Below the pieces are notes generated by a model. That model did not search any database. It was not told the origin of the DNA and worked only from the letters and a program-made list of their open reading frames with translations. DNA of 14,672 nucleotides from Azonexus sp. (GTDB lineage Bacteria > Pseudomonadota > Gammaproteobacteria > Burkholderiales > Rhodocyclaceae). The stretch spans positions 1 to 14,672 of the forward strand of contig JAKLLI010000038.1 in NCBI GenBank assembly GCA_023150195.1. Reading direction: 5' to 3'. A program made the position numbers and the translations under genes. How positions within the stretch are numbered: the stretch's first letter is position 1; the number at the start of each line of letters is the position of its first letter. This document shows positions 1,432-14,345 of the stretch, piece after piece.

Positions 1432-1566
1432 ATGAAACGCACGTATCAACCGTCGGTCGTGCGCCGCAAGCGCACCCATGGCTTCCTGGTCCGTTCGCGC
1501 ACCAAGGGTGGCCGTGCAGTCCTCGCTGCTCGCCGCGCCAAGGGTCGTAAACGCCTCGCCGTCTAA
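1432..1566 (+). CDS. rpmH: 50S ribosomal protein L34
   Basis: This is a 44-residue, very basic protein of the large ribosomal subunit. It starts [21 protein letters not shown] and ends GRKRLAV, which is the diagnostic L34 sequence and exactly the usual bacterial length. A Shine-Dalgarno AAGGAA (1419-1424) lies 7 nt before the ATG. It is the first gene of the rightward cluster and is preceded by a near-consensus promoter. rnpA begins 18 nt after its stop. The gene is complete and shows no anomaly. Confidence 0.98.
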
Positions 1567-6706: not shown

Positions 6707-6753
6707 GCGGATTTTTCCCATAAAATCAGCCCCAGTTGCTCAAAGGATTTCCC

Positions 6754-8400
6754 ATGCGCATTACGCTCGTTCATCCCGCCGGATTTAATTTTGTGCCAGG
6801 ACAACCCGATTTCTCGGTGCTGGCCAACCGCATGCCGCCCATCGGCATCATGCAGCTCGCCAGCTGGCTGGAGAAATTTGGTCACAGCGTCCAGTTGCAC
6901 GACTGTCTCGGGCCGTATGCGCCGCCCGGCATCGAAGCCAACGCGGAGATCATTCTGGCCACTGATCCCGAGATGGTGGGATTTTCCGCCACCACTTCCG
7001 GTTTCATGGATGCCGCCGATATGGCGCTGTACATCCGCGAAAAGCGACCGGACATCAAGATTGTTTTTGGCAACGTTCATGTCTCCTCGCTGGGTGCGCC
7101 CATCCTCGAGAAATTCCCCGAAATCGACTATCTGGTGATTGGCGAGGGTGAAGGCGCCCTGCTCGACCTGGCCGATGGCAAGCCGCTGGCCGATATCGGG
7201 AACCTGATCTGGCGTGACGATACCGGGCGGATTACGGTCAACCCGCGCCGAGACCGAATTCTCGATCTCGATGAACTGCCTTTCCCCGCCTACGAAAAAC
7301 TCGCCGGATTTCCGCACGCCTACCATCTGCCGCTGTTCGCCTACGCAAAGCGCTACGGGGCGACGATGATTACTTCGCGCGGCTGCCCCTACACCTGCTC
7401 GTTCTGCGACCGGACCGTGTTCGAGCGCCTCTACAAGACCAATTCCGCGCAATACACCTACGATCACATGAAGTACCTGCGGGACAACTTCGGGGTGTAT
7501 CACATCAATATGTACGACGATCTGTTCACCGCCAAGAAGCAGCGGGTGATGGATCTGTGCGATCTGTTGATCGAAAAGCCGCTGGGCGTGCAGTGGAATT
7601 GCGCCATCCGCACCGGCCATACCTCGGACGAAATGCTGGCCAAGCTAAAGCAGGCGGGCGCACTGATGGTGTCCATGGGGGTGGAGTCGGCCGATCCAGG
7701 CATGATGGCCCGCCACAAGGCGGGCGTGACGCTGGATGCGGTGCGCGATACCGTGCGCCAGATTCATGCGGCCGGCCTGCGCGCCAAGGGCCTGTTCATT
7801 TTCGGCATGCCGGGCGAAACCCCGGAAACGCTCAAGGTCACCAGCGATTTCATCCTTTCGCTCGATCTCGATGAAATGAACATGACCAAGTTCAGTCCGC
7901 TGCACGGGGCGCCGATCTGGGACGAATGCGTGAGCGGCGTGGGCGGCGACATGATCGAGGACTGGCGCTTGATGAACTGCCTGAACTTTGTTTATCTGCC
8001 CGAAGGCTTCTCCTCCCGCGAGGAAATGGATGCGCTCTACAACTGGCATATCAAGCGCTTTTACGACAGCAAGGGCTATCGCCGGCGCTTCGCCAAACGC
8101 TTGTGGCAGCACCGCTGGAGCCTCTGGCATGTACTCAGGCATTTGCCGGAAACGATTGCCGCCATGCGTTACTTCAGTGCCAACAAGGAAGACATGGAAC
8201 GGGCCAAGCGGGAATTCAAGCGTCATCCCCGCCAGCCGGTCGGACTGATTCCGCAACTCAGCACGGATCTGCAAATCGACAACATCGTGGCGATGTCGCC
8301 GGTCAAGCTCTCTCGCCGTGAGGCGATGAAGCAGATCATTCCGGTGGTGTATGAAGGCAGCAGTTGCAGCAGCGCAGGGGCCTGTTCGACAGCGGTATAA
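6754..8400 (+). CDS. B12-binding-type radical SAM enzyme
   Basis: Radical SAM enzymes cleave S-adenosylmethionine with a [4Fe-4S] cluster; members with this architecture (class B methylase/BchE type) often methylate unactivated carbons or rearrange rings. The 548-residue protein has an N-terminal Rossmann-like cobalamin-binding-type domain (about 1-140; MRITLVHPAG at the start, VGFSATTSGFMDAADMA, VIGEGEGALLDL). The radical SAM domain carries CxxxCxxC at C211, C215 and C218 in TSRGCPYTCSFC. I do not see the DxHxxG cobalamin motif, which many relatives also lack. The C-terminus is unusual: SSCSSAGACSTAV with C538 and C544. The ATG at 6754 is preferred over an upstream TTG (6736) because AAAGGA sits 6 nt before it. 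It lies upstream of the halogenase-like and chorismatase genes, suggesting a shared aromatic substrate; the reaction is unknown. Confidence 0.9.
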   Translation: MRITLVHPAGFNFVPGQPDFSVLANRMPPIGIMQLASWLEKFGHSVQLHDCLGPYAPPGIEANAEIILATDPEMVGFSATTSGFMDAADMALYIREKRPDIKIVFGNVHVSSLGAPILEKFPEIDYLVIGEGEGALLDLADGKPLADIGNLIWRDDTGRITVNPRRDRILDLDELPFPAYEKLAGFPHAYHLPLFAYAKRYGATMITSRGCPYTCSFCDRTVFERLYKTNSAQYTYDHMKYLRDNFGVYHINMYDDLFTAKKQRVMDLCDLLIEKPLGVQWNCAIRTGHTSDEMLAKLKQAGALMVSMGVESADPGMMARHKAGVTLDAVRDTVRQIHAAGLRAKGLFIFGMPGETPETLKVTSDFILSLDLDEMNMTKFSPLHGAPIWDECVSGVGGDMIEDWRLMNCLNFVYLPEGFSSREEMDALYNWHIKRFYDSKGYRRRFAKRLWQHRWSLWHVLRHLPETIAAMRYFSANKEDMERAKREFKRHPRQPVGLIPQLSTDLQIDNIVAMSPVKLSRREAMKQIIPVVYEGSSCSSAGACSTAV

Positions 8401-8409
8401 TTGCGGGCT

Positions 8410-8490
8410 GACCGGCTGCCGATGCGCGCCGGTCCATGACAAAAATTATTGATGCCGCGACAGGGAAGCCAGACCGGGGAGTTAGGACCG
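8410..8490 (+). promoter_or_regulatory. Structured leader before the halogenase-like gene
   Basis: The 90-nt gap contains a 7-bp perfect inverted repeat, GACCGGC (8410-8416) and GCCGGTC (8428-8434). The same right arm can alternatively pair with GACCGG (8472-8477) or, through CGGTCC (8430-8435), with GGACCG (8485-8490) next to the ribosome site and start codon. Mutually exclusive pairings of this kind can control translation, but short GC-rich matches can arise by chance. A TATAAT (8396-8401) overlaps the upstream stop codon without a convincing -35. Confidence 0.3.
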
Positions 8491-9825
8491 ATGGAACAGC
8501 AGACACAATCCGTGGAACGCCAGCACTGTGACGTGCTGGTCATTGGCGGCGGGCCGGCGGGAACGACCGTGGCGCCGATGCTGGCGGAAAAGGGTTACAA
8601 GGTGGTGATTCTGGAAAAGGACCACCATCCGCGTTTCCATATTGGTGAATCGCTGTTGCCGGCCAATCTGCCCCTGTTTGAAGCCATGGGGATCGCCGAG
8701 GAAGTCCGTTCCATCGGCATGCACAAGCCGGGCGCCGAGTTTGTATCGCCCAACCATGACATGTCCTCGGTCTTCAACTTTGCCGAAGCCTGGGACAAAT
8801 CCATGCCCAGCGCCTATCAGGTCAAGCGCGACGAATTCGACACCATCCTGATCCGCAACGCGGCGCGCAAGGGCGTGGTGGTGCACGAAGGCTGCAAGGC
8901 CAAGGGCATCGATTTTCTTGAAGATAAATCCGCCGTGGTTCGCGCCATGCACGACGATGGTCGCGAAAGCGAATGGCAGGCCCGTTTCGTGGTCGATGCC
9001 TCGGGGCGCGACACCTTTCTGGCCAACCGCTTCCGCATCAAGCATCGCAATCCCAAGCACAACAGTTCGGCGATCTACGGCCATTTCACCGGCGCCAAGC
9101 GCCTGGAAGGTCAGGCCGCCGGCAACATCACCATTTTCTGGTTCGAGCACGGCTGGTTCTGGTTCATCCCGATGCAGAACGACCTCACCAGCATCGGCAT
9201 GGTGACCTGGCCATATTTCATGAAGACCAAGGGCGAGCGCAGCCTCGAACAGTTCCTGCGCGATGGCATTGCGATGTGCCCCAAACTGGGCGAGCGTCTG
9301 ATGAACGCGACCCTGGTCAACGAGGTCGAGGCCACCGGCAATTTCTCCTATGTATCGGAGCGCAACCACGGCGAAAACTACGTCATGCTGGGCGATGCCT
9401 ATGCCTTCATCGACCCGGTGTTTTCCTCCGGGGTGCTGCTGGCGATGAACAGTGGCGTGCTGGCCGCCGAGGCCATCGATACCTGTTTGCGCACCCCGGC
9501 CAAGGCGCCTGCGGCGCTCAAGCGATTCGACAAATTGATGAAGCACGGGCCCAAGGAATTCTCGTGGTTCATCTACCGCGTCACCAATCCCATCATGCGC
9601 GATTTCTTCATGGGGCCGCGCAACCTCTTCCGCACCAAGGAAGCGGTGCTGTCCATGCTGGCCGGTGACATCTTCGGCAAGACCCCGATCTGGCCATCGA
9701 TCTGGATGTTCAAGGTGCTGTACTACTTTGCCAACGTGATTCAGCCGAAACGCGCCTTCATGGGCTGGAAACGTCGCCAGTTCAATATTCAGCGGGTTGA
9801 TGATCCGGCAGCGAACGCGCTCTGA
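8491..9825 (+). CDS. Flavin-dependent halogenase-like oxidoreductase
   Basis: The 444-residue protein belongs to the FAD-dependent halogenase/monooxygenase superfamily. The FAD-binding motif GGGPAG spans residues 19-24. HKPGAEF places K79 at the position of the conserved halogenase lysine. The halogenase signature WxWxIP is W222-F-W-F-I-P227. FxxPxxSxG is F306 to G314, following GDA (301-303). All features expected of a genuine halogenase are therefore present, although several family members act as oxidases or have unknown substrates. ATG 8491 is preferred over the upstream TTG/ATG (8449/8452) because GGGGAG and TAGGA lie just before it and the FAD fold follows directly. It overlaps the chorismatase start. 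A similar halogenase-like gene accompanies the chorismatase in xanthomonadin (brominated aryl polyene) loci, so an aryl or polyene substrate is likely (inference). Confidence 0.88.
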   Translation: MEQQTQSVERQHCDVLVIGGGPAGTTVAPMLAEKGYKVVILEKDHHPRFHIGESLLPANLPLFEAMGIAEEVRSIGMHKPGAEFVSPNHDMSSVFNFAEAWDKSMPSAYQVKRDEFDTILIRNAARKGVVVHEGCKAKGIDFLEDKSAVVRAMHDDGRESEWQARFVVDASGRDTFLANRFRIKHRNPKHNSSAIYGHFTGAKRLEGQAAGNITIFWFEHGWFWFIPMQNDLTSIGMVTWPYFMKTKGERSLEQFLRDGIAMCPKLGERLMNATLVNEVEATGNFSYVSERNHGENYVMLGDAYAFIDPVFSSGVLLAMNSGVLAAEAIDTCLRTPAKAPAALKRFDKLMKHGPKEFSWFIYRVTNPIMRDFFMGPRNLFRTKEAVLSMLAGDIFGKTPIWPSIWMFKVLYYFANVIQPKRAFMGWKRRQFNIQRVDDPAANAL

Positions 9826-10837
9826 CGTGCCCTTTCTGACCTTTACGCCCCGTTTTGATCCCGTTGCCGTTCCACGTGGAACGGCGCAGGTGCTGGGCAC
9901 CTTCCGTCTGGGCGGGCAAGCGCTTGCGGTCGACTGGCCCGAACAAGGCATTTTTGCCCGCCTGCCCGGGTTGACCGCCGATGCCGTGCACGAGGCCTGG
10001 CTGGTGGAGGGGCCGGTCACGTCCGGCACCTTTGACGGGATTGCCTGGCGGCGTGCCGGCGATGTGTTGTTCGGCGTGATCGATCTGGACGAAGCCGCCT
10101 TTGCTGACGGGGCCGAGGCCCCCATGCAGGCGGCCAGCGAACTGGCTTACCGGCGAATTTTTGCCCTGCTCGATGCGCAAGGCCTGCCGGCCTTGTGGCG
10201 GGTGTGGAACTACCTCAGCGACATCAACGGCGAGGCTCGCGGGTTGGAGCGCTATCGCCAGTTCAACGTGGGCCGGCAGGATGCCTTTTTGGCCTGCCGA
10301 CGCGGGTCGACCGGCAACGTGCCGGCTGCGTGTGCGCTCGGCCTGCAACGTGGTCCGCTTTCGGTGGCTTTTCTGGCTGGCGCCACGCCCGCCGTGCCCG
10401 TCGAAAACCCGCGTCAGGTCAGCGCCTACAACTATCCCGCCGAGTATGGCCCGCGCAGCCCGACTTTCTCGCGCGCGGCGCTGGTTTATCCGCCGGGGCA
10501 GGAAATCCTGTTCATTTCCGGGACCGCCAGTATTGTCGGTCATCAGACGGTTCATGCCGGCGACGTTACCGGGCAAACCCGGGAGGCGCTGGCCAATGTG
10601 CTGGCGGTGCTCGCAGAGGCTAACAGCAAGTGCCGTTCTGCCGAATTTTTGCCGGAAACGCTGGTGTACCGCGTCTATCTGCGCCACCTTGCCGATTATC
10701 CGCAAATTCACGCCCTGCTCAGCGCCGCGCTGCCGGGTGCCGAGGTGCTGTACGTGGAAGCCGATGTCTGTCGCAGTGATTTGCTGGTTGAGATTGAAGC
10801 CATGGCGCTGCATGCGCTGGAGGACGCCCCATGTTGA
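9800..10837 (+). CDS. Chorismatase, FkbO/Hyg5/XanB2 family (hydroxybenzoate-forming)
   Basis: Enzymes of this family convert chorismate to dihydroxycyclohexadiene-carboxylate (FkbO type), 3-hydroxybenzoate (Hyg5 type) or 3- and 4-hydroxybenzoate (XanB2 type); databases often call them pteridine-dependent deoxygenases. Visible signatures are RVWNYLSDIN (134-143), LERYRQFNVGRQDAF (149-163), ENPRQVSAYNYP (202-213), FISGTASIVGH (238-248) and VEADVCRSDLLVEIE (319-333). C324 with E331 matches the spacing of the cysteine and glutamate described for Hyg5-like 3-hydroxybenzoate synthases, so I favour that product (from memory of the family, to be checked by alignment). The start is uncertain: ATG 9800 overlaps the halogenase end, while GTG 9827 directly after it gives VPFLTFTPRF; neither has a strong ribosome site. 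A parS-like palindrome is embedded at codons 23-29. The stop overlaps the next gene by 7 nt. Confidence 0.9.
   Translation: MIRQRTRSDVPFLTFTPRFDPVAVPRGTAQVLGTFRLGGQALAVDWPEQGIFARLPGLTADAVHEAWLVEGPVTSGTFDGIAWRRAGDVLFGVIDLDEAAFADGAEAPMQAASELAYRRIFALLDAQGLPALWRVWNYLSDINGEARGLERYRQFNVGRQDAFLACRRGSTGNVPAACALGLQRGPLSVAFLAGATPAVPVENPRQVSAYNYPAEYGPRSPTFSRAALVYPPGQEILFISGTASIVGHQTVHAGDVTGQTREALANVLAVLAEANSKCRSAEFLPETLVYRVYLRHLADYPQIHALLSAALPGAEVLYVEADVCRSDLLVEIEAMALHALEDAPC
9866..9885. other. parS-like palindrome (ParB centromere site)
   Basis: A 20-bp perfect palindrome is centred on GTTCCACGTGGAAC (9869-9882). This core is identical to the core of the parS sites of Pseudomonas and related proteobacteria, where the half-site GTTCCAC is the main ParB determinant; only the outermost pair differs (C..G instead of T..A). 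It lies about 8.5 kb from the dnaA-rpmH spacer, as expected for an origin-proximal parS, and is read through as codons AVPRGTA of the chorismatase gene. I found no second copy in the window. Confidence 0.8.
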
Positions 10838-11618
10838 AGCGAATTGCCCGTTGTGCGGCCCTGTTGGGCCTGTCCGCCGCCCTGCCCATGTCGGCGATGG
10901 CGGAAGATGTCCCCTTGTGGGAAGTCGGGGCCGGGGTTGCCGCCTTCAGTTTTCCGGCCTACCGCGGTTCGGATCAGACCAGCAATTTCGTGATGCCGGT
11001 GCCGCATTTCACCTATCACGGGATCGCCTTGAACTGACCTTGTCCGCCGCGCTGTCCCCGCCCGCCAGCAGCGACGACATCGAGGCGCGCAAGGGCATGC
11101 AGGATCTCGACGCCACCTTTGAAATCGGGCCACAGATCGATGTCACTTTATGGCGCTCCGAGAACCGTGCCCGCTTCGTCAAGCTGCTGCTGCCCCTGCG
11201 CGCGGCGGTTACGCTGGACAGCAAGCCGCGCGACATCGGCCTGGTCTTCCATCCCAAGCTGAACATGGACGTGACCGACCTGCCGGGCATGGCCGGCTGG
11301 AACCTTGGCCTGCTGGCCGGCCCGCTGTTTGGCGACCGGCGTCAGCATGACTACTTTTACGGGGTGAAGGCGAGCGAGGCGACCGCCACCCGCCCCGCCT
11401 ACGAAGCTCGCAGCGGTTATGCCGGCATGCAGTATCTGGCTTCGCTGTCCAAGCGCTTCCCCGGCTATTGGGTGGGCGGGTTTGTGCGTTACGACAATCT
11501 GGCCGGCGCCGTTTTCGAGAACAGCCCGCTGGTTCGCGACAAAAATTATTTTGCCGCCGGCATGGCCGTGACCTGGATTCTGGGCGAGTCGTCGACCCGC
11601 GTTCGCATCGATGACTGA
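10831..11618 (+). pseudogene. MipA/OmpV family outer-membrane protein, frameshifted
   Basis: The first segment (10831-11037) encodes a signal peptide, MLKRIARCAALLGLSAALPMSAMA, and the MipA start EVGAGVAAFSFPAYRGSDQ...PVPHFTYHG, then hits TGA at 11035-11037. The rest of the family sequence continues in another frame as DRLELTLSAALSPPASS...RKGMQDLDATFEIGPQID and runs to 11618, ending in the beta-barrel-like AAGMAVTWILGESSTRVRID. The break lies at the GGG run at 11020-11022. One extra G there would join YHG to DRLELTLS in frame and give a 262-residue protein, a normal MipA length. The cause is either a real one-base deletion or a base-calling error in the run. Family members are outer-membrane or MltA-interacting proteins. 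Both ends overlap neighbours (chorismatase by 7 nt, acyltransferase by 8 nt). Confidence 0.85.
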
Positions 11619-12387
11619 TGGCCGGCAGCGGACGGGCTGGCTTTGGCGCGCCTATGAAGCGATTGCCATGGTGCTCGGTCTTGGTGCGCTGGCCGTCATC
11701 TGCCTGTTGTGGCTGCCCTTTGCCCTGATCCTCAATCCCCTGCTGCCGCGCCAGTCCGGGCAGCGGCTCGGTCGACTGGCGATTCGCCTCGGTTTTCGCG
11801 CTTACCTCGCCTTTCTGGAAATCGTCTGCGCCTGCAACTTCGATCTCTCGGATCTTGATCGCCTGCAAGACGAAGCACCGCTGATCCTGGTGGCCAATCA
11901 TCCCTCGCTGCTCGATGCGGTGATGATCCTCTCGCGCTTTCCCAATGCCGTCTGCGTCATGAAAGCGGCCTTGCTGGACAACATCCTGTTTGGTTCGGCA
12001 GCGCGGCTGGCGCGCTACATCCGGAACAATGCGCCGCTGGAGATGATCCTGTCCGCGCGTGAAGAATTGCAGGCTGGCGCGCATCTGGTGATTTTTGCCG
12101 AAGGCACGCGCACCCGCCATTTCCCGCTCGATCCCTGCATGCCGACCACCGGCCTGATTGCCGGTCGGGCGCAGGTGCCGGTCCAGACCCTGCTGATCGA
12201 GTTTTCCACGCCCTATCTCGGCAAGGACTGGCCGCTGTTCCGGCGCCCGATCCTGCCGCTGCGTTGCCGTATCCGCTGTGGTCGCCGTTTCCCGCCGCCG
12301 GCCAATGTCGCGGCATTTACGGTGGCGCTCGAAACTTACCTGCGCAGCGAATTGTCCCCGACCTCGCCGTCGACCGTGCACGCCTGA
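11611..12387 (+). CDS. PlsC-type lysophospholipid acyltransferase family protein
   Basis: The family transfers acyl chains to glycerol phosphates or other hydroxyl acceptors at the inner membrane. The 258-residue protein has an N-terminal hydrophobic segment (about 20-42, IAMVLGLGALAVICLLWLPF). It carries the catalytic HxxxxD motif as NHPSLLD (H97, D102) and the phosphate-binding EGTR (164-167, in FAEGTRTRHF). The start at 11611 overlaps the end of the MipA gene by 8 nt and the glycosyltransferase follows after 3 nt, so the genes are probably co-transcribed and coupled. Acyltransferases and glycosyltransferases are regular members of aryl polyene clusters, where they are thought to attach the polyene to a lipid or sugar anchor. 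A housekeeping PlsC role cannot be excluded from sequence. Confidence 0.9.
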   Translation: MTDGRQRTGWLWRAYEAIAMVLGLGALAVICLLWLPFALILNPLLPRQSGQRLGRLAIRLGFRAYLAFLEIVCACNFDLSDLDRLQDEAPLILVANHPSLLDAVMILSRFPNAVCVMKAALLDNILFGSAARLARYIRNNAPLEMILSAREELQAGAHLVIFAEGTRTRHFPLDPCMPTTGLIAGRAQVPVQTLLIEFSTPYLGKDWPLFRRPILPLRCRIRCGRRFPPPANVAAFTVALETYLRSELSPTSPSTVHA

Positions 12388-12390
12388 ATC

Positions 12391-13149
12391 ATGACCGAAG
12401 CTTCCACCACCCATCTCGTTCTCATCCCCAGCTACAACCCCGGCCCCAAGGTGCTCGATACCGTGCGCGCCGCCCGCGCGCAATGGACGCCGGTGTGGGT
12501 GGTAGTGGATGGCAGTACCGACGGTAGTGATCGCGCCCTGCGGGAGATGGCCGCCAGCGACCCCGGTTTGCAGGTAATCGTGCTTCCTCAAAACAGCGGC
12601 AAGGGCGCCGCGGTGCTCGAAGGCATCACCCAGGCCGCCGCCGCCGGGTTCACGCATGCCCTGACCATGGATTCCGACGGTCAACATCCGGCGGATCTGA
12701 TTCCGGCTTTCATGGCCGCCTCGCAGGCAGCACCGGAGGCGATGGTGCTGGGCAAGCCGGTCTTCGCTGCCGATGCCCCGGCCCTGCGGGTGAATGGGCG
12801 TAAGGTGTCCAACGGCTGGGCCAATCTGGAAACCCTGTGGATGGGCATTGGCGATTCGCTCTACGGTTTTCGGGTGTATCCCATCCTGCCGTTGATCCGC
12901 ATCATGCGGGGCAATCGCTGGATGCGCCGATTCGACTTCGATCCGGAAGCCGTGGTCCGCCTGTGCTGGGCGGGCGTGCGGCCGATCAACCGCGACGCGC
13001 CAGTGCGCTATTTCCGCGCCGATGAAGGCGGTGTCTCGCATTTCAAATATCTGCGCGATAACACCCTGCTGACCTGGATGCACACCCGGCTTTTCCTCGG
13101 TTTTGTCATGCGCCTGCCCCTGCTGGCATTGCGCCGCCTGCGGGGATGA
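12391..13149 (+). CDS. Family 2 glycosyltransferase
   Basis: The 252-residue GT-A fold enzyme transfers a sugar from an activated donor. Near the N-terminus is LIPSYNPGPKV. The nucleotide-binding DGSTDGS follows at 40-46, NSGKGAAVLEGI at about 70-81, and the metal-binding DSDGQH at 94-99. The last 25 residues (FLGFVMRLPLLALRRLRG) form a hydrophobic, basic-ended tail that probably holds it on the inner membrane. The arrangement resembles short dolichyl-phosphate-mannose-synthase-like enzymes, but donor and acceptor are unknown. It starts 3 nt after the acyltransferase stop and its own stop overlaps the antiporter start (ATGA). The tight coupling suggests that acyltransferase and glycosyltransferase act on the same molecule. 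Confidence 0.92.
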   Translation: MTEASTTHLVLIPSYNPGPKVLDTVRAARAQWTPVWVVVDGSTDGSDRALREMAASDPGLQVIVLPQNSGKGAAVLEGITQAAAAGFTHALTMDSDGQHPADLIPAFMAASQAAPEAMVLGKPVFAADAPALRVNGRKVSNGWANLETLWMGIGDSLYGFRVYPILPLIRIMRGNRWMRRFDFDPEAVVRLCWAGVRPINRDAPVRYFRADEGGVSHFKYLRDNTLLTWMHTRLFLGFVMRLPLLALRRLRG

Positions 13150-14345
13150 ACACCAGCGAAATATTCCTGATCGCGATGGCGATCATCTTCACCGTGCCCT
13201 GGCTGATCTGGCGCTTGGGCAATACCGACTATTACGCGCCGCTCGTCGTCGTCCAGATCATTGCCGGCATTCTGCTTGGGCCCGGCATTCTCGGCGCCGT
13301 CTTCCCCGAGTATTACGCCTTCGTCTTCCGGCCACCCGTGATCCAGTCGCTGAACGGCATTGCCTGGTGGGCGGTGATGCTTTTCGTGATGATTGCGGGC
13401 GTGGAACTGGATCTGAAAAAGGCCTGGGCCTATCGGCGGGAAAGCGGCATTACCGCCGGGCTGGCGCTGGGCACACCGCTGGCATTCGGCTGTCTCGCGG
13501 CACTGATGATGTTGACGGTCGACGGCTGGATGGGGCCAAAAGCCATGATCTGGCAATTCGTCCTCGGCGTCGGCATGGCCTGTGCCGTCACCGCCCTGCC
13601 CATCCTGATCCTTTTCATGGAAAAGCTCGATATCCTGCGCCAGCCCATGGGCCAGCGCATTCTGCGCTACGCCAGTCTGGACGACATCGCCATCTGGGGT
13701 GTGCTGGCACTGATCCTGATGGACTGGCAGCGCGTTGGCCGCCAGACCGCCTTCCTGCTCGCCTTTGCACTCGCCGCCTGGGCCTATCACCGCCTGATGG
13801 CGGCCTTGCAGGAACGCGACCGCTGGTATGTCGTGCTGATCTGGCTGGCGGTGATCGCCTTTGCCGCCGACTGGGCCGGCCTGCATTTCATGGTCGGCGC
13901 CTTCCTTGCCGGTGCCAGCACCGAGGCGGAATGGTTCGATCAGGAAACAATGGACCAACTGCGGCAGCACGTCCTGCTCGTCGTGATGCCCGTCTTTTTC
14001 CTCAGCACCGGCCTGCGCACGGACTGGGCGATGGGTGGCGCCGCCGTCTTCATCGCCGCAGCGCTGCTGCTGGCGGCATCGGTCGTCGGCAAACTGGTTG
14101 GCGTGCAACTGGCGGGACGCATCCTGCGCTGGGCCCCCGGCGAAGCCAGCATCATCGGCTGGCTGCTGCAAACCAAGGCCCTGATCATGATCATTTTCGC
14201 CAACATCCTGCTCGACAAGCAGATCATCACCAGCGAAACCTTCACCGCCCTGCTGCTGATGGCCGTGGCCAGCACCATGCTCACCGTGCCCATGGTTGCG
14301 CCCAAGCTCGCCCGCCTCAAGGCCCTCATTACCCGGAGTGAGTGA
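13146..14345 (+). CDS. CPA2-type cation:proton antiporter (Kef/NapA-like)
   Basis: Antiporters of this family exchange Na+ or K+ for H+ across the inner membrane. The 399-residue protein has about 12 hydrophobic segments. It shows the family's early GILLGPGILG (about 41-50), MLFVMIAGVELDL (about 78-90) and the ion-binding acidic pair D179-D180 in SLDDIAIWGVL. The later segments include HFMVGAFLAGAS and FFLSTGLRTDW. There is no C-terminal RCK/TrkA-N regulatory domain, unlike KefB/KefC, so it is a membrane-domain-only form. The ATG overlaps the glycosyltransferase stop by 4 nt, indicating translational coupling. A direct link to the aromatic pathway is not evident; it may simply share the operon. 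Confidence 0.92.
   Translation: MNTSEIFLIAMAIIFTVPWLIWRLGNTDYYAPLVVVQIIAGILLGPGILGAVFPEYYAFVFRPPVIQSLNGIAWWAVMLFVMIAGVELDLKKAWAYRRESGITAGLALGTPLAFGCLAALMMLTVDGWMGPKAMIWQFVLGVGMACAVTALPILILFMEKLDILRQPMGQRILRYASLDDIAIWGVLALILMDWQRVGRQTAFLLAFALAAWAYHRLMAALQERDRWYVVLIWLAVIAFAADWAGLHFMVGAFLAGASTEAEWFDQETMDQLRQHVLLVVMPVFFLSTGLRTDWAMGGAAVFIAAALLLAASVVGKLVGVQLAGRILRWAPGEASIIGWLLQTKALIMIIFANILLDKQIITSETFTALLLMAVASTMLTVPMVAPKLARLKALITRSE

Follow-up and report, generated by a model that had tools for sequence, protein, structure and literature searches.

Why should early codons of a chorismatase gene spell a perfect palindrome, and is it the DNA or the peptide that is being kept there? The window analysed here, a stretch of 14,672 nucleotides from an Azonexus sp. 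genome (a 2.52 Mb draft in 425 contigs, 77% complete, of which the window is contig C198), reads GCCGTTCCACGTGGAACGGC at positions 9866..9885 (no strand assigned), which by inspection is a perfect 20-bp palindrome, present as the initial annotation had described it. Its core at 9869..9882, likewise without strand, is GTTCCACGTGGAAC, an exact match to GTTYCACGTGRAAC, which, in line with that annotation, we take to be the core motif of chromosomal parS sites and hence the putative point of ParB nucleation. A motif this short can turn up by accident, and a search for GTTYCACGTGRAAC with up to two mismatches in dinucleotide shuffles of the window gave a mean of 0.17 matches, and 32 of 200 shuffles contained one or more. 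In the window itself, however, the same search returned 9869-9882 as its single match, and that match is exact; a reversed-pattern control gave 0 matches in all 41 genomes of a first set (and one match each in 2 of the 121 genomes of a second), and 31 genes retain the site at exactly this position. We therefore regard a chance palindrome as hardly credible.

Extended to the whole genome, the scan that the initial annotation had suggested yields 12 exact matches compared to 0 for the control. Allowing one mismatch added 2 matches compared to 3 for the control, so only the exact sites are clear of chance. Six of the 12 lie within Pfam-matched genes (LOG-family, SLT, MetH, peptidase U32, flavoprotein/UbiX and the chorismatase) and a seventh occupies the last codons of an 819-aa open reading frame without Pfam match; one is found just 5' of an ATG taken as the gyrB start, one just 5' of an MFS gene, and the remaining 3 are between genes or not assigned to one. 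Most sites being in genes, an intragenic parS is normal here, as in Pseudomonas aeruginosa PAO1, for which PMC4368675 gives 9 of 10 parS as predicted within coding sequence. The idea that a segregation site and a gene share the same bases thus stands as far as the overlap goes, but such sharing is not unusual for parS.

The genome also encodes the protein that would read these sites, as had been anticipated. Contig C226 carries mnmG and the genes for ParA and ParB together, with rsmG, by our reading, between them. This ParB possesses the ParB_N, HTH and C-terminal domains, all three recognized by Pfam, and its HTH region reads GRSR..N..GHAR, a motif that by residue count from the HTH motif corresponds to R173 and G201 of the Caulobacter protein. 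These two residues are said, in PMC7383237, to be absolutely conserved in extant ParB. A ParB was found in 8 of 8 relatives searched, some of which have extra ParB-like genes.

An origin-proximal location is suggested by the landmarks of the window: dnaA, cut by the contig end (2..1246, minus strand; Pfam Bac_DnaA, E=1.5e-61), and rpmH (1432..1563, plus strand; PF00468). The site lies 8.3 kb from rpmH, which within rounding is the distance of about 8.5 kb to the dnaA-rpmH spacer given before. Since the genome is fragmented, its other sites were placed by synteny, against origin-region stretches only of two genomes of the same genus (G008:C9 1-220,000 with part of C16, and G014:C13 220,001-420,000). 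By this estimate 11 of the 12 lie no more than 13 bp from a G008 site, one of them on C16, while the twelfth is 233 bp off; for G014 the same closeness is seen for 9 of the 12. Their places extend from -151 to +67 kb relative to rpmH in G008 or G014 coordinates. Two relatives assembled as one contig agree with such clustering. All 10 sites of G020 (3.45 Mb) are inside 190 kb, a stretch that includes rpmH, and all 4 of G024 (3.96 Mb) are inside 30 kb, at 23 kb from rpmH. On one contig of G152 (about 4.2 Mb), four sites occur at 3-47 kb and three others at 4,168-4,207 kb. G102, whose sites are found at distinct places on three contigs (as judged from contig positions only), is an exception and counts against clustering.

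The gene that holds the site (9827..10837, plus strand) is of the FkbO/Hyg5 type of chorismatases, as indicated by a Pfam match to PF21168 (E=6.9e-40), by its PDB relatives (FkbO 4bps, 5ag3 and 5a3k) and by the finding of both the Pfam FkbO_Hyg5-like N domain and the RidA-like C part. With NCBIfam TIGR04444 it scores 227.5 bits, below the curated cut-off of 325, so that it is a relative, perhaps of another subtype. The mechanically called reading frame covers 9797-10837; we place the start at the GTG at 9827. The gene immediately 5' of it (8449..9825, plus strand; Pfam Trp_halogenase, E=4.3e-30) resembles FAD-dependent halogenases, and its stop codon leaves a single base before this GTG. Beside dnaA-rpmH, the window at 6736-14345 comprises a cluster of genes for a B12-binding radical SAM protein, this halogenase-like FAD enzyme, the chorismatase, a MipA-like protein, an acyltransferase, a GT2 protein and a Na/H exchanger. 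In most genomes of Azonexus/Dechloromonas the chorismatase is found 8-11 kb from the origin.

Within this gene the core occupies, in frame, the codons GTT CCA CGT GGA ACG (VPRGT; 9869..9883, plus strand), in agreement with the initial annotation. They are codons 15-19 if the GTG at 9827 is the start, 42 bp downstream of that presumed start codon, and the Pfam N-terminal domain begins about 36 residues further on. The site sits in a variable N-terminal tail of the enzyme, where its 14 bases can be kept at little cost to the protein.

Among the genomes of the genus examined for the gene, 20 of 25 (that of the window included) have the chorismatase, two of them as partial matches, and 13 of these 20 have an exact parS inside it, in one codon register. 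The chorismatase of the window and the site-bearing orthologues of the same genus are 59-69% identical in protein. In a wider set of 81 genes, which comprises the best 80 of 421 confirmed loci plus the window and overlaps the genus set, an exact parS is present in 31, again all in a single codon register.

It could be argued that V[SP]R[EG]T serves the chorismatase as a functional motif and that the palindrome is a side effect of it, as the peptide occurs in all 31 site genes. The codons tell a different story. In the 31 genes the site is written as GTT (31), TCA (23) or CCA (8), CGT (31), GAA (29) or GGA (2) and ACN (31). Out of 330 codon columns, each filled in at least 28 of the 31 genes, only 11 have an invariant third base, namely four consecutive parS codons, five Trp, one Gln and one Leu, so that the parS codons form the sole run of invariant third bases. 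By comparison, in the 92 columns containing only V, P, T, A, G, S, L or R, the commonest third base has a median share of 68%. The codons in question are mostly rare further downstream in the same genes (GTT in 135 of 716 Val, TCA in 33 of 594 Ser, CCA in 74 of 650 Pro and CGT in 115 of 757 Arg codons), GAA being common (385 of 651 Glu). The variation of the peptide (S/P and E/G) is confined to the two free bases of the motif; the half-sites appear as GTTCCAC and GTTTCAC in PMC7022226. Among the 50 site-less genes, moreover, the peptide stands in place in only one, L059, the DNA of which is one base off parS, and L095 has VPRET further downstream in quite different codons. A comparable peptide, VPRETP of the UbiX-family gene in this genome, likewise coincides with a parS and speaks for a protein motif; the start of the Pfam N-terminal domain well past the site speaks against it. 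Invariant third bases at these codons point to selection on DNA and not on the peptide, and we consider the protein explanation very improbable. The check proposed in the initial annotation, an alignment of orthologues for synonymous positions conserved at these codons, came out for a parS, the site dictating the codons.

Taken together, the origin-near sites, the parB gene and the invariant third bases support the reading as a parS-type site, and we are highly confident that the palindrome functions as a chromosomal parS and belongs to the 12 exact sites that synteny places round the origin, to which ParB would be expected to bind. ParB would nucleate on the palindrome, then form a closed CTP clamp that slides along the flanking DNA, and the origin region would thereby become the cargo of ParA and a platform for SMC loading, in keeping with a presumed role in segregation. 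The 14 bases would be kept at little protein cost, with the peptide V[SP]R[EG]T as a probable by-product of the DNA.

How the site came to be in this gene can be addressed from its distribution. A locus was counted as linked to the origin if tblastn detected rpmH, yidC or mnmE in it (YidC confirmed by Pfam, MnmE presumed), absence being judged only where at least 9.3 kb of upstream sequence was available; 64 of the 81 loci could be judged, and 17, of which 6 with the site, were dropped. Among the judged loci of this set (best 80 of 421 plus the window), 36 of 64 chorismatases are linked, and a parS is present in 24 of the 36 linked compared to 1 of the 28 unlinked genes (Fisher p 1e-7, as a simple count). 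The sole unlinked gene with the site, L067, is on a contig that bears two other parS. In the same set (best 80 of 421 plus the window), 12 of the 36 linked genes, that of D. agitata among them, have no parS, and the chorismatase site is thus dispensable. A tree-aware pair test of linkage against site gave 1 independent pair on starred branches, which is too few. These counts bear on the proposal that the site entered together with a pathway gained by horizontal transfer. Relatives of the chorismatase do occur in several genera of other lineages, but 27 of the 28 unlinked homologues, including those of Hydrogenophaga, Accumulibacter, Thiobacillus and Thauera, are without the site, compared to 12 of the 36 linked copies, and the gene is linked to the origin landmarks in over half of the judged loci. 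Such joint arrival, raised by the initial annotation, is accordingly disfavoured and in our estimate highly unlikely. More probably, the parS arose or became fixed inside the chorismatase within the Azonexus/Dechloromonas lineage and has probably been lost several times since, the direction of these events being our reading of the distribution.

Chorismatase trees, built quickly and with SH-aLRT support only, show 7 changes of site label in a first version, which was cut at residue 45 and retained part of the site columns in some rows, and 8 in a second, cut at a later anchor (4 anchorless rows at residue 75). Site-less genes are nested in site-bearing groups, as for D. agitata and for Thauera butanivorans, the latter unlinked to the landmarks, and we read such genes as losses of the parS. 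In the L059 chorismatase (Dechloromonas sp. SB18), which retains the parS peptide, the core is one base off (GTTTCACGCGAAAC), which may reflect either decay of the site or an error in the sequence. Compensation for an absent chorismatase site by a neighbouring one was considered and not supported: on the side concerned, G020 shows no parS up to +38 kb, and the contig of G016 shows no parS at all. In G015 (locus L105), where the chorismatase site is absent, a parS is found 4.8 kb further on.

The chorismatase position is part of a larger set. In 10 genomes chosen from the 27 of the genus, sites were joined into positions if a tblastx segment of more than 60 bits predicted the partner within 15 bp. 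The 96 sites of these genomes could all be assigned to 16 exact positions, of which 2 are represented by a single site. Three positions are occupied in every one of the 10 genomes and two in 9 of them, whereas the chorismatase position is occupied in 6. At another position, filled in 7 of the 10, the UbiX-family gene (L127:9523, G000:C267) has its parS embedded at the peptide VPRETP. Calculated from the aligned segment, a parS in the MetH gene of another genus of the family (L215:1575) coincides with the MetH position of Azonexus, and some positions hence predate the genus Azonexus/Dechloromonas. Of the other genera of the family examined, two show a different layout, with close parS pairs just upstream of mnmG, 35 bp (L219:1547-1595) and 27 bp (L220:1513-1553) apart.

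These positions also bear on a regulatory use of the site, in which bound ParB would mainly repress or tune the chorismatase and the genes downstream of it, segregation being secondary. A site 42 bp past the presumed start codon would be suitably placed, and ParB is able to silence genes near parS in some settings (PMC7022226). Against this, many further sites occupy conserved positions within or next to unrelated genes (LOG-family, SLT, MetH, U32, UbiX and the gyrB leader), and we judge the regulatory explanation improbable, though less so than the other alternatives, and keep to the reading as a segregation site.

The number of sites sets the genus apart. In 27 genomes of Azonexus/Dechloromonas, several of them incomplete, the median is 7 exact parS (range 2-15). 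The 118 genomes examined from 67 other genera of the family have a median of 2, with exactly 2 in 88 genomes, one in 12, three in 10, five in 3, six in 1 and none in 4. This difference indicates that Azonexus/Dechloromonas enlarged its parS set. In G008, G014 and G020, 10-14 sites on one contig span 174-202 kb. Over the 24 stretches of the genus with at least 2 sites, the 102 gaps among the sites listed have a median of 14.5 kb and a minimum of 5.97 kb; 2 are under 6 kb and 6 over 40 kb, the largest being 278 kb in G102. Gaps are more regular than under uniform placement (p<0.05) on 9 of 14 chosen contigs, with p about 2e-4 for G008 and for G014; among the 14 contigs tested, no such regularity was detected in G016, G018, G024, G006:C82 and G022:C5. 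A combined p over the 14 contigs is not valid because the genomes share ancestry. A strict spacing rule was rejected, as distances between the same positions differ fivefold between genomes: from the MetH to the MFS site they amount to 26.5, 6.9, 17.8, 29.9 and 6.0 kb in G008, G014, G020, G016 and G024. Positions are thus kept and distances are not, and there is no fixed ruler.

A tentative extension, which we think possible yet rather doubtful, is a dispersed centromere specific to the genus, in which the usual two parS have become up to 15 at fixed, spaced places, so that overlapping ParB domains would tile some 200 kb round the origin and genes, including the chorismatase, would be bent at codon level to host sites. 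The median gap of 14.5 kb is close to the travel of the ParB clamp, given in PMC9242446 as a reach of about 15 kb from the loading site.

Our literature search, many subscription journals lying outside its scope, returned nothing on parS in Azonexus. A paper matched for parS, ParB and Dechloromonas makes no mention of Dechloromonas in its main text. On parS together with chorismatase, no title about ParB was among the matches listed, and searches on even spacing, coding overlap, betaproteobacteria and conserved positions of parS gave no title on the chorismatase site. A parS in the chorismatase is known in kind, since intragenic parS are already known; the genus-specific, enlarged and position-conserved set is the less expected and larger point. 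The locus offers a clean, measurable case of a segregation signal superimposed on coding sequence and maintained, despite deep divergence, by selection on DNA. Moreover, a genus with a median of 7 and up to 15 sites beside 67 other sampled genera of the family, in which 2 is usual, provides a natural experiment on why certain bacteria spread out many parS.

Compared to the chromosomal ParABS systems of Bacillus subtilis, P. aeruginosa and Caulobacter, the site itself is no different, sharing the GTTYCACGTGRAAC core, the clustering round the origin and the parAB genes beside mnmG; particular to the Azonexus lineage are the host gene, a chorismatase, and the exact set of sites. With P. aeruginosa PAO1 the similarity is that parS are mostly predicted in coding sequence, whereas in Azonexus the conservation has been measured at codon level across species and the host gene is part of a cluster which in relatives is either absent or located elsewhere. 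In most bacteria parS are clustered within 5-40 kb, scattered sets being restricted to few lineages that include the Bacilli, and B. subtilis has eight parS over about 0.75 Mb (both from PMC8357415). Azonexus thus resembles B. subtilis in having many sites over a wide origin region, but the 10-14 sites on one contig of its relatives G008, G014 and G020 span 174-202 kb instead of 0.75 Mb, and the shortest of the 102 listed gaps is 5.97 kb.
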